In this document: piece by piece, positions 1,341-4,647 of the stretch
How positions within the stretch are numbered: the first letter of the stretch is position 1
Layout: every line of letters begins with the position of its first letter
Source: a bacterium
Lineage (GTDB): Bacteria > Blakebacterota > Blakebacteria > Blakebacterales > Blakebacteraceae
NCBI GenBank assembly: GCA_025774205.1
Contig: JALGWK010000151.1
Location: forward strand, 1-5,647
Direction: 5' to 3'
DNA length: 5,647 nt
The notes under the pieces: model-generated
What the model saw: the letters and a program-made list of their open reading frames with translations, nothing else
What the model was told of the DNA's origin: nothing
Databases searched by the model: none
Position numbers and translations under genes: made by a program

Positions 1341-2583
1341 GTCGAGACTGCGTCTGCCCCTGCTCAGCCTCGCGGCGCGGAACACCCGGCGCAATACCCG
1401 GCGCACCCTGCTTACCATGAGCGCGATCCTGGTGGCGGTTGCGGCGGTGACTTTCTCCTTCGGCTACATCAACGGCATCGTGGACGATTTCCTCGACAGC
1501 ATGACCAAGGTCCAGACCGGACATGTCCGGATTACCCATAGTGAGTTCCCGGCCCGGGAGCGATTCCTCCCGATGCACCTGAATGTGCAGCATATCTCCG
1601 AACTCCTGCCGGTCATCCGTTCCCACCCCACTGTGGTGGAGGCCATGCCCCGGATCAAGACGGCGGTCCTGATCGATAACGGCCTCGACAACAAACCGGC
1701 CATGCTCCTCGGCGCCGACCTGGAACGGGAAATCGGCTACCTGGATATCATATCGATGGTCTCGGAAGGGCGGGCACCGCAGGCCGGAGAGACCGGGATG
1801 CTCATCGGTTACCTGCTGGCCGAAGAGCTGGAGGTATCGGTCGGGGACACCCTGACCCTGCTCGGTCAGACCGCCTACCGCTCCCTCGGCGGCATCAGGG
1901 CCCCGATCACCGGCCTGACCTCCACGGGAATCGATCCGCTTGACCGAATGACCATCTTCATGCCCCTCGACCAGGCCCAGTACATGACTGACCTGGAGGA
2001 CAGCACGACCGAGATACTGGTATTCTTGGAAGACTTTGAACTGTCGCGCGAGATAGCCGGGTCACTCCAGGAGGAACTCGATCCGCTGGTGATCGGCGGC
2101 GTGGCAGCCGTCTCATGGCTGGATCAGAGTGAGATAGCACAGATGTGGGAGATGGCCGACAGCATCTACGGCGCCATCATGTTCATCTTCCTGCTCATGG
2201 CGGGCCTGATCATTGTCAACACCATGATCATGACGGTGATCGAACGGACCCAGGAGTTCGGGATGCTGCGCGCAATGGGGATGAACAACCGGAGCATCAT
2301 GATGCTGATCATCGATGAGGGTCTCATCATCGGCCTGATCGGCGCCGTCATCGGCGGTCTGGTGGGCAGCGGCTTCGCCATCTGGCTCGAGAAAACCGGT
2401 CTCAACATGGCGAAGGCGGTAGAGGGTATGGACTGGCCGATCAGCAGTGTCATGTATCCCGACTGGAGGCTGAGTCACCTGATCATCGGCATCGCCGTGG
2501 GAGTGCTGACAGCGGGAATCGCCACCCTGCTGCCGGCGCGACGGGCGATCAGGATGAACCCGGCGGAGGCATTGAGAGAATGA
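1333..2583 (+). CDS. ABC transporter permease 2 (FtsX/MacB/LolE type)
   Basis: This is an intact 416-residue inner-membrane permease and the paralogue of the broken gene upstream. The start ATG 1333 is preceded by GGAGG (1319-1323) with nine-base spacing, and it overlaps the previous gene by 8 bp. The layout is typical of the MacB/LolC/LolE superfamily. There is a short cytoplasmic lead (AARNTRRNTRRTLLT), TM1 at about 25-48 and a periplasmic domain at about 49-275. TM2 is at 277-301, followed by the coupling loop IERTQEFGMLRAMGM (303-317), TM3 at 328-352, TM4 at 380-401, and the terminal PARRAIRMNPAEALRE. Such permeases do not pump across the membrane like a channel; they use ATP-driven conformational change to act on periplasmic or membrane-embedded cargo. 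Two different permeases plus one ATPase resemble LolCDE, and the following LolA-like gene supports a lipoprotein or lipid cargo. The cargo is inferred, not shown. Confidence 0.92.
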   Translation: MSESRLRLPLLSLAARNTRRNTRRTLLTMSAILVAVAAVTFSFGYINGIVDDFLDSMTKVQTGHVRITHSEFPARERFLPMHLNVQHISELLPVIRSHPTVVEAMPRIKTAVLIDNGLDNKPAMLLGADLEREIGYLDIISMVSEGRAPQAGETGMLIGYLLAEELEVSVGDTLTLLGQTAYRSLGGIRAPITGLTSTGIDPLDRMTIFMPLDQAQYMTDLEDSTTEILVFLEDFELSREIAGSLQEELDPLVIGGVAAVSWLDQSEIAQMWEMADSIYGAIMFIFLLMAGLIIVNTMIMTVIERTQEFGMLRAMGMNNRSIMMLIIDEGLIIGLIGAVIGGLVGSGFAIWLEKTGLNMAKAVEGMDWPISSVMYPDWRLSHLIIGIAVGVLTAGIATLLPARRAIRMNPAEALRE

Positions 2584-3416
2584 GGCGACGATTCATGAAA
2601 ACCCTCACACTTGACCATCGAAACGCCGGATCGCCGTCCAGGACTCCGTCCAGGGAGAAGGGCACGCTGATATGGCCGCTCACCCTTCTTCTCATCATGC
2701 TGGCTCCAGCGATCGCCTCCGCCCAGCCCACTCCGGAGGAGATACTCCAGCGGGTGGACACGAACATGACCTTCTCAACCGGCCGGATGACGGCGAAGAT
2801 GACCATCAATTACCGCAACGGGGTGTCGCGGGAGATGGAGTTCAATTCGTGGTCGGAGGGGACCGACCGCTCCTTTCTGGAATTCACCTCCCCTGCCCGT
2901 GACGCGGGCAGCCGGTTCCTCCGCCTGGAGGGGGATCGGATGTGGATCTTTATCCCCCGGGTCGGCAAGAGTATCCGGATCCAGGGACACATGCTGAGGC
3001 AGGGCCTGATGGGGAGTGACTTCTCCTACGGCGACGCCAGCGAGAATCCGAGCATGGTGGATGACTACACCGCTGTCATTGAGAGGGAGGAAACCCTCGA
3101 CGGGCGCCCGACATGGGTCCTCTATCTGACGGCGAAACGGCCCGATCTGGCGTATCAGAGCCTCCGTCTCTGGATCGATGCCGAACGGTGGGTCCCGCTG
3201 AAGGAAGAGCAGTTTGCGAAGAGTGGGAAACTGCTCAAGACATCACTGCTGGGAGATATCCGGCTGATCGACGGGCGCTGGTATCCCATGCGCATCGAAC
3301 TCAACAACGCCCTGCAGGCCGACACGAGCACGGTCATGGAGATCATTGACTTCGAGATGGATGTCGAGATCCCCGAACGGATCTTCACCCTCCGCAACCT
3401 CGAGGGAGGGAGTTAG
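2580..3416 (+). CDS. Periplasmic LolA-like outer-membrane lipoprotein-sorting protein (PF17131 type)
   Basis: A 278-residue exported protein. ATG 2580 forms an ATGA overlap with the permease stop and has GGAGG at 2565-2569. ATG 2595 (residue 6) is an alternative start. A hydrophobic segment at about residues 30-46 ends in ASA before Q49, a good signal peptidase I site; no lipobox cysteine is seen. The mature part (about 230 aa) carries signatures I recognise from the 'outer membrane lipoprotein-sorting' LolA-like family: FLEFTSPARDAGSRFLR (99-115), MWIFIPRVGKSIRI (121-134) and LMGSDFSYGD (143-152). Members fold like LolA/LolB half-barrels and are often encoded beside ABC permeases or RND exporters. 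The expected role is to carry or receive hydrophobic cargo in the periplasm for the ABC complex. The charged stretch before the hydrophobic core is unusually long (27 aa) and contains a 12-bp in-frame duplication (2634-2657). Confidence 0.88.
   Translation: MRRRFMKTLTLDHRNAGSPSRTPSREKGTLIWPLTLLLIMLAPAIASAQPTPEEILQRVDTNMTFSTGRMTAKMTINYRNGVSREMEFNSWSEGTDRSFLEFTSPARDAGSRFLRLEGDRMWIFIPRVGKSIRIQGHMLRQGLMGSDFSYGDASENPSMVDDYTAVIEREETLDGRPTWVLYLTAKRPDLAYQSLRLWIDAERWVPLKEEQFAKSGKLLKTSLLGDIRLIDGRWYPMRIELNNALQADTSTVMEIIDFEMDVEIPERIFTLRNLEGGS
2634..2657 (+). repeat. 12-bp in-frame tandem duplication in the signal-peptide n-region
   Basis: CCGTCCAGG occurs at 2634-2642 and again at 2646-2654, a period of exactly four codons. 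It encodes PSRT followed by PSRE just before the hydrophobic core of the LolA-like protein's signal sequence. It lengthens the charged n-region and probably arose by replication slippage. No function is implied. Confidence 0.6.
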
Positions 3417-3419
3417 CAG

Positions 3420-3534
3420 CTGGTCGTGAGTCCCCCGTACGACTGGTCGTGAGTCCTCTGTACACCTCGTCCTGAGTCCCCGATACACCTCGTCCCGGGT
3501 TCCCGGCACATCTGTTCCGTGAGTCCCTGTGTGC
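3420..3534. repeat. Five-unit 23-bp tandem repeat array in the intergenic region
   Basis: Five head-to-tail units start at 3420, 3443, 3466, 3489 and 3512, beginning four bases after the LolA-like stop codon. Units 1 and 2 share an exact 14-base core (CTGGTCGTGAGTCC) and 19 of 23 bases overall. Units 2 and 3 share 18 of 23, and units 3 and 4 share 17 of 23. Unit 5 keeps GTGAGTCC shifted by one base. A very degenerate sixth copy may follow from about 3534. The period is not a multiple of three and no plausible gene covers the array, so it is not a coding repeat. There are no unique spacers, so it is not CRISPR. It could be a decaying minisatellite, a multi-site protein-binding region, or part of a repeat family dispersed in the genome. 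Confidence 0.8.
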
Positions 3535-3571
3535 CGGTCGAATATCCTGTCGGAATTTCTCGAATAAAAGT

Positions 3572-3614
3572 GAAACACCTCTGGCGCGGTCGCGTATTAT
3601 CCTGTACATTGACA
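3572..3614 (+). promoter_or_regulatory. Candidate promoter for the membrane protein/winged-helix/sigma operon
   Basis: The segment from about 3555 to 3660 is clearly richer in A/T than the flanking genes. TATTAT at 3595-3600 is a good -10 candidate, with a weak -35 (GAAACA, 3572-3577) 17 bases upstream. A perfect TTGACA lies at 3609-3614, but the bases 16-18 nt downstream of it make a poor -10. Either arrangement puts the palindromes at 3612-3642 on or just after the promoter, where a bound repressor would block it. The exact start site cannot be fixed from sequence. Confidence 0.4.
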
Positions 3615-3642
3615 AAGTACTTTGTGTGGCAAACTGCTTTGC
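3612..3642. promoter_or_regulatory. Twin palindromic operator sites, CAAA-N4-TTTG
   Basis: ACAAAGTACTTTGT (3612-3625) is a perfect 14-bp palindrome. A second site, GCAAACTGCTTTGC (3629-3642), has the same half-sites CAAA and TTTG around a different four-base centre. The two sites are 17 bp apart, which is about one and a half helical turns. They lie between the candidate promoter and the first gene of an operon that encodes a small winged-helix regulator. Regulators of that type normally bind short palindromes as dimers and often control their own operon. Autoregulation by the protein encoded at 4336-4647 is therefore the simplest reading. The pairing of protein and site is inference. Confidence 0.65.
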
Positions 3643-3706: not shown

Positions 3707-4333
3707 ATGTCGCAGCCCATCGATCTCGAAACGATCGAACGCAAAGCGTACTCGTCCAAGTTCCGGGACGGACTTCATGATATCCAGATCGGACTCCTCC
3801 TTGTGGGAGCCTGGGCCCTGCTGGTCGATTTCACCGGGGACACCTACATATTCCGGGAGGCCATGCCGATCTACCTCCTCTACTGCCTCGTGATAAGTAC
3901 GATCCCCTGGCTGGGGAAACGCTGGATCACCGCCCGAAGGATGGGCACAATGAAACCTGGAGTTGAGAGACGGTTGAAGATACGCAAGGCCGGTGTGGTC
4001 CTGGCCCTCATTGTTTTGATCCAGGCATTCCTGGTCCTGCTCCAGACCATGGGGATCATACAGGTCGGGACCGACCACCTGTTGTTCGCCCTGGGCGCCG
4101 GCACCATCGTCTTCCTGCCGATGGCGGTCATCGCGCACCGGAACGATCTCATCCGGGGTTATGTCCACGCCATCCTGGTGGGGATGACGGTTACCCTCAT
4201 CATACTCCTGGACACGGGCGCTCCCCTGCTCTGGTCCGGAGTTGTGATTCTGACGATGGGGCTCTTCATCTTCATCAGGTTCATGATTCAGAATCCTCTG
4301 CCGGACGACACCCCCGTCAGCGAGGAGGAGTGA
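3707..4333 (+). CDS. Six-helix integral membrane protein of unknown function
   Basis: A 208-residue protein that starts at ATG 3707 after AAAGGAG. Six hydrophobic helices are visible at about residues 24-41, 53-69, 96-114, 124-143, 151-169 and 173-191. The long loop 70-95 is strongly basic (GKRWITARRMG...ERRLKIRK), and loop 144-150 contains HR and R. By the positive-inside rule this places both termini in the cytoplasm. The N-terminal stretch ERKAYSSKFRDGLHDIQIGL resembles uncharacterised membrane proteins that I associate with neighbouring winged-helix regulators. I know of no assigned biochemical function. The acidic C-terminal tail (DDTPVSEEE) has no recognisable domain. It is first in a three-gene operon with a regulator and an ECF sigma factor, so it may be a regulated membrane stress component or a sensor. 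That is inference only. Confidence 0.85.
   Translation: MSQPIDLETIERKAYSSKFRDGLHDIQIGLLLVGAWALLVDFTGDTYIFREAMPIYLLYCLVISTIPWLGKRWITARRMGTMKPGVERRLKIRKAGVVLALIVLIQAFLVLLQTMGIIQVGTDHLLFALGAGTIVFLPMAVIAHRNDLIRGYVHAILVGMTVTLIILLDTGAPLLWSGVVILTMGLFIFIRFMIQNPLPDDTPVSEEE
4324..4330 (+). promoter_or_regulatory. Ribosome binding site inside the end of the membrane protein gene
   Basis: GGAGGAG at 4324-4330 lies five to seven bases before GTG 4336, the favoured start of the winged-helix gene. It is too close to the other in-frame GTG at 4330, which overlaps it, to serve that codon. This decides the start and implies translational coupling with the upstream gene. Confidence 0.7.
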
Positions 4334-4335
4334 TC

Positions 4336-4647
4336 GTGTCCGGGACGGAAGGATCACCGGGCGGGATCAACCGACTGATCCACGAACCGGCGAGACTTAT
4401 GATCATGTCGTATCTCGCCGTCGTGGAGAGCGCCGACTTCCTCTTCCTGCAGAGCCAGACCGGTCTGACCTTCGGAAACCTCTCCTCCCACCTGAGTCGG
4501 CTGGAGGAGGCCGGATACCTGCGCGTCGAGAAGAAATTCGTGGGGAAGAAACCGAACACCATCCTCAGTCTCACGGCCACGGGACGTGAAGCGTTCGATC
4601 GGTACCGGCGGCAGATGATGGAAATGCTCGACGAGGAAGAGGCCTGA
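4336..4647 (+). CDS. Winged-helix transcriptional regulator, HTH_34 (MarR/ArsR-like)
   Basis: A 103-residue single-domain DNA-binding protein. The start is GTG 4336, two bases after the preceding stop; GTG 4330 is a less likely alternative. The sequence follows the HTH_34 (PF13601) pattern from end to end. The INRLIHEPARLMIMSYL helix at 11-27 is typical of the family. A helix-turn-helix follows at about 36-60, with recognition helix TFGNLSSHLSRLEEAG. The wing is YLRVEKKFVGKKPNTILSLT (61-80), and the dimerisation helix is TGREAFDRYRRQMMEML (82-98). No cysteine cluster or ligand domain is seen, so a sensed signal cannot be named. The likely role is a dimeric repressor of its own operon acting at the CAAA-N4-TTTG palindromes at 3612-3642. 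The family assignment is strong; the target is inferred from position. Confidence 0.9.
   Translation: MSGTEGSPGGINRLIHEPARLMIMSYLAVVESADFLFLQSQTGLTFGNLSSHLSRLEEAGYLRVEKKFVGKKPNTILSLTATGREAFDRYRRQMMEMLDEEEA

Follow-up and report, generated by a model that had tools for sequence, protein, structure and literature searches.

Dimers of MarR-family repressors bind short inverted repeats at the promoters of their own operons, and in Bacillus subtilis the GntR-type YtrA is a local autorepressor of an ABC-2 exporter operon. The nearest solved structure to the winged-helix regulator described here is PH1061 of Pyrococcus horikoshii (PDB 1ub9; hmmsearch E 3.7e-15, TM 0.80), although the two proteins share only ~30% identity. 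Neither an operator nor a partner gene of PH1061 was found in the open-access papers searched, and the same papers contained no mention of the HTH_34 family name or of a TTTG-N5-CAAA operator.

The locus and its paired palindromes

The window, that is, the whole stretch of 5,647 nucleotides analysed, harbours a three-gene operon in which the HTH_34 regulator is the second gene. The relevant features are as follows.

Window, + strand: ABC-type permease genes (FtsX/MacB)
2580-3416, + strand: LolA-like gene
3571-3598, + strand: ECF-type promoter TGAAAC-N16-CGTATT (-35 at 3571-3576, -10 at 3593-3598)
3605-3610, + strand: TACATT, a possible sigma-70-like -10 by sequence comparison
3613-3616, + strand: outer left half-site CAAA, in register in 22 of 44 operators
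3617-3637, + strand: predicted operator GTACTTTG-TGTGG-CAAACTGC, 21 bp, with core TTTG at 3621-3624 and CAAA at 3630-3633
3638-3641, + strand: outer right half-site TTTG, in register in 6 of 44 operators
3707-4333, + strand: partner membrane protein, 208 aa, first operon gene, no Pfam family
4330-4647, + strand: HTH_34 winged-helix regulator, 105 aa, second operon gene, PF13601
4649-5281, + strand: ECF sigma-70 factor, 210 aa, third operon gene, PF04542/PF08281, TIGR02937

The membrane-protein and HTH_34 genes share 4 bp, as in a tight operon, and a 2-oxoacid oxidoreductase gene lies 3′ of the ECF sigma gene. The regulator, previously given as 103 aa, has 105 when counted from the GTG at 4330. 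It is a member of PF13601 (E 3.8e-28, 97.9 bits against the Pfam curated cut-off of 27), and its AlphaFold2 model (mean pLDDT 89.9) displays the winged-helix arrangement, with helix 48-60 followed by strands 64-71 and 74-81. It did not score as an ArsR/SmtB metalloregulator (NCBIfam NF033788, 29.8 bits against 55), being also devoid of cysteine, nor as a PadR-type Rv3488 protein (NCBIfam NF053635, 20.4 bits against 140).

The MacB/FtsX-like permease at 71-1340 is broken up into two frames that overlap (71-763 and 744-1340), suggestive of a frameshift or an assembly error. An ECF sigma homologue occupies the same place in genome G001 and is incomplete: the gene, 3′ of HTH_34 (L110, 3477-3908), matches only residues 51-210 of the window protein and therefore looks truncated or frameshifted.

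The original prediction of two CAAA-N4-TTTG palindromes is borne out by the letters: CAAAGTACTTTG at 3613-3624 and CAAACTGCTTTG at 3630-3641 are both present, 17 bp apart from centre to centre, and the perfect 14-bp palindrome ACAAAGTACTTTGT (3612-3625) encloses the former. Both lie in the 290-bp gap between the LolA-like gene and the operon. They are the only two matches in the window; dinucleotide shuffles contained 0.01 on average, and none of 200 yielded two. In 20,000 draws from a first-order Markov model of the 290 intergenic base pairs the full composite did not arise, and it occurs once in the 3.09-Mb genome. The pair is not due to chance. The sites precede the operon, as had been stated; they are not directly next to the regulator gene itself, which comes second, after the gene for the 208-aa membrane protein.

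A conserved dyad upstream of related operons

The window and 78 related loci, among them 65 from named genomes, were oriented on the HTH_34 gene, and all half-site spacings from 0 to 12 were counted in the zone from -2000 to -400 of that gene. Only TTTG-N5-CAAA and CAAA-N4-TTTG stood out. TTTG-N5-CAAA was found 0.4-2 kb upstream in 44 of the 79 loci and downstream in 3, tallies in which close homologues (ANME, Spirosoma) are over-counted; with a matching fifth base required, the numbers were 37 upstream and 0 downstream. CAAA-N4-TTTG was likewise enriched (24 loci upstream, 3 downstream). A profile search added 24 new loci, 12 of them with an exact TTTG-N5-CAAA core. The usual distance from dyad to HTH_34 gene is ~710 bp, because the partner gene sits in between. 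Among the 35 loci without an exact core, some are on cut contigs, some have the site farther upstream and some carry variants; no site was found at the loci of several distant HTH_34 proteins.

The bacterial carriers of the dyad belong to Latescibacterota, Chloroflexota, Acidobacteriota, Gemmatimonadota, Deinococcota, Bacteroidota and Neomarinimicrobiota, and the archaeal ones to ANME and other Methanosarcinales, Bathyarchaeota, Theionarchaea and Thorarchaeota. The dyad of a Lokiarchaeon lies ~6.2 kb upstream of HTH_34 and heads a longer operon. A motif search before related HTH_34 operons could have gone against the claim of an HTH_34 operator, and the claim survived it: the element is kept upstream. 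The unit was out of register, however, since the conserved inner dyad (3621-3633) joins the 3′ half of the first palindrome to the 5′ half of the second.

The register follows from the symmetry of the sites. The bases flanking the core were C..G in 26 and G..C in 11 of the 44 operators, and with 12 further sites included they were complementary across the dyad in 49 of 56, against 30 expected by random pairing (0 of 20,000 permutations). In the TTTA..TAAA sites (L019, L144, L145, L158, L162) both halves had changed together. This symmetric covariation, together with the paired changes, sets position 3627, which lies between the two palindromes, as the two-fold axis. The window's own site is not a perfect dyad, as its right half reads CAAAC and the flanks are thus C..C. 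Both outer arms were present in 4 of the 44 operators, namely those of the window, L007, L021 and L055, which have all four half-sites, and the left CAAA is frequent in Methanosarcinales. The outer CAAA/TTTG arms are optional, and CAAA-N4-TTTG was rejected as the operator unit since these arms are not constant.

Promoters around the site

The sequence at 3571-3598 has the ECF form known from SigW; TGAAAC, the 16-bp spacer and CGTA occupy 3571-3596. In the 3.09 Mb, GAAAC-N16-CGTATT has just two occurrences, one before each HTH_34 operon (reversed control 0), and the orthologues of G001 and G002 are preceded by it as well. When the three orthologous gaps were aligned, the TGAAAC, CGTATT and operator blocks were kept and the remainder drifted. 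The looser TGAAAC-N16-CGTA had 10 genomic matches and its control 3, which makes the ECF assignment weaker than that of the operator. The promoter would presumably be recognised by an ECF sigma factor; G002 keeps it with no ECF gene beside the operon. In G003 (L113, 819-845), GAAAC-N16-CGTATT lies ~10 bp before a gene for a 265-aa protein with a signal-like N-terminus, possibly a further ECF target.

The counterparts of TACATT are TAGATT in L007 and TAAATT in L021, with TTGACC/TTGACA 17 bp upstream; no good -35 for TACATT was found in the window. TTGACA at 3609-3614 was rejected as a -35, as no good -10 follows, a promoter scan was empty and the promoters of the relatives lie upstream. A 23-bp tandem repeat of ~3 copies (GTCCTGAGTCCCCCGTACACCTC) occupies 3423-3505, past the LolA-like gene and ahead of the promoter, and was not seen when the orthologous gaps of L007 and L021 were aligned.

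Elsewhere among bacteria the operator lies right after a TTGACA-N17-TATAAT-like promoter; in archaea its right half-site adjoins a TATA box. This placement, just past -10 boxes or against TATA boxes, suits repression.

Genome-wide specificity

The 3.09 Mb contain CTTTG-N5-CAAAS twice, in the window and at C419:1686-1700 (reversed control 1), and these precede the only two HTH_34 genes above cut-off in the genome. The C419 regulator gene is also paired with a homologue of the partner membrane protein, and its operon has the inner dyad only. Two sites, both before HTH_34 genes, argue for a local autoregulator. Used as a regulon finder in 15 other genomes, STTTG-N5-CAAAS gave counts mostly near or below control, so that no wider regulon can be claimed from the pattern. 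In Spirosoma (L077, 5301-5315; L078, 5303-5317) a second operator copy is located 3′ of the regulator, before a gene for a 414-aa protein without a Pfam match; small regulons therefore exist.

Residue 48 of the regulator

Among the aligned columns of the regulator, residue 48 carried the most information on operator class, and in the structure model the recognition helix (48-60) begins with it. K, Q or R at this position goes with G-TTTG..CAAA-C, and F, W, A, D or E with C-TTTG..CAAA-G. This rule was picked after inspection of the first locus set, where K/Q/R was found with 10 of 11 G..C sites and none of 25 C..G sites (Fisher 4e-8, relatedness ignored); the exception is L053, with L and G..C. 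All 12 exact cores among the new loci obeyed it (K 3/3, D/E 9/9). The window regulator has F48 (codon 4471-4473) and a mixed C..C site. The trait changed only 3-4 times on the tree, and the independent pairs agree and are too few for significance; the link is therefore suggestive rather than statistically independent proof.

The membrane partner

The model of the 208-aa partner is all-helical, with approximately six helices of membrane length, and the N-terminus contains the motif IERKAYxxxFxDGLxDIxxG. Across the family's four genomes, every homologue found accompanied an HTH_34 gene. Pfam has no family for most members and a Foldseek search gave no match below E 0.3; the partner appears to represent an undescribed membrane-protein family, marked near the N-terminus by DGLxDIxxG. 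Bacteroidota have another membrane protein in this position. The operons of Calidithermus, an Anaerolineae MAG and the Lokiarchaeon include an ABC ATPase and an ABC-2 permease, which suggests a role in export or envelope homeostasis. The Lokiarchaeal operon (L133, 1024-7521), with the same operator and a TATA box at its front, encodes an Rce1-like protein, the ABC ATPase, the ABC-2 permease, three partner paralogues and HTH_34.

Proposed mechanism and alternatives

The joint reading, to which we assign a probability of roughly 0.85, is that 3617-3637 is an HTH_34 operator, bound by a dimer that represses the membrane-protein/HTH_34/ECF sigma operon at its ECF-type promoter. We infer the binding, the dimer arrangement and the repression, as well as the acting sigma factor and the inducing signal, as follows. 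An HTH_34 dimer would bind TTTG-N5-CAAA with one recognition helix per half-site, and residue 48, at the N-terminus of this helix, would select the base beside the invariant TTTG/CAAA. The outer arms would be additional half-sites able to accommodate a second dimer. With the operator directly downstream of the promoter, bound protein would block RNA polymerase and HTH_34 would exert negative autoregulation on its operon. An ECF sigma factor probably acts positively on the same operon, and the inducing signal may arrive via the membrane partner.

The version originally put forward, two separate CAAA-N4-TTTG operators each with its own dimer, would account for the upstream enrichment of that spacing (24 loci against 3), for the four half-sites in the window, L007, L021 and L055 and for the frequent left CAAA of Methanosarcinales. 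It is nevertheless unlikely, as the inner dyad is constant and most loci lack the outer arms, the covariation and the TTTA..TAAA double changes centre on the inner dyad, and the C419 paralogue carries that dyad alone. Were HTH_34 instead to activate its operon from the site, which its position alone would allow in some lineages, one would hardly expect it past the -10 or against the TATA box in most of them, normally a repressive place, and we consider activation more improbable still.

We give the least credence to the idea that the dyad is not a site of HTH_34 and belongs to another regulator, a promoter element or an RNA hairpin. The site is always at a promoter, and the Bacteroidota half-site TAACTTTG resembles the known -7 box TAnnTTTG. 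Against this, the dyad is common to Bacteria and Archaea despite their differing promoters and found with HTH_34 genes, is specific in its own genome and co-varies with a recognition-helix residue; the RNA version was rejected, since an Rfam search matched no family.

Repression by HTH_34 from the inner dyad is thus the preferred reading. Relative to the original prediction, the evidence favours the operator, corrects its register and brings in an ECF-type promoter. HTH_34 genes are widespread. Having a defined site and a residue predicted to set specificity makes them a testable system, in which operators in bacteria and archaea become predictable from protein sequence, and singles out the unnamed membrane protein as the probable sensor or target. 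For a local regulator it is unusual that a DNA site should persist across two domains whose promoters differ. The chances seem evenly balanced for a broader picture in which one operator and one residue-48 code were kept across Bacteria and Archaea, Asgard included, the regulator travelling with a small membrane protein whose family is undescribed, and perhaps serving as a membrane-signal switch for ABC exporters, here layered on an ECF sigma loop.

Comparison with known systems

The winged-helix fold is shared with the MarR-family repressors solved with operator DNA (HsmR 8zde, MftR 8ylg, MepR 4lll), but sequence similarity to these is weak, the window protein is shorter, its predicted site is TTTG-N5-CAAA and its usual partner is a membrane protein without known function. 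As in YtrA systems, a small DNA-binding protein is co-transcribed with membrane genes; unlike there, the regulator is HTH_34 and the constant partner is a small membrane protein, not an exporter. The sequence at 3571-3598 is identical to SigW-type ECF promoters in hexamer, spacing and -10 core, and differs from them in the predicted HTH_34 operator directly downstream.
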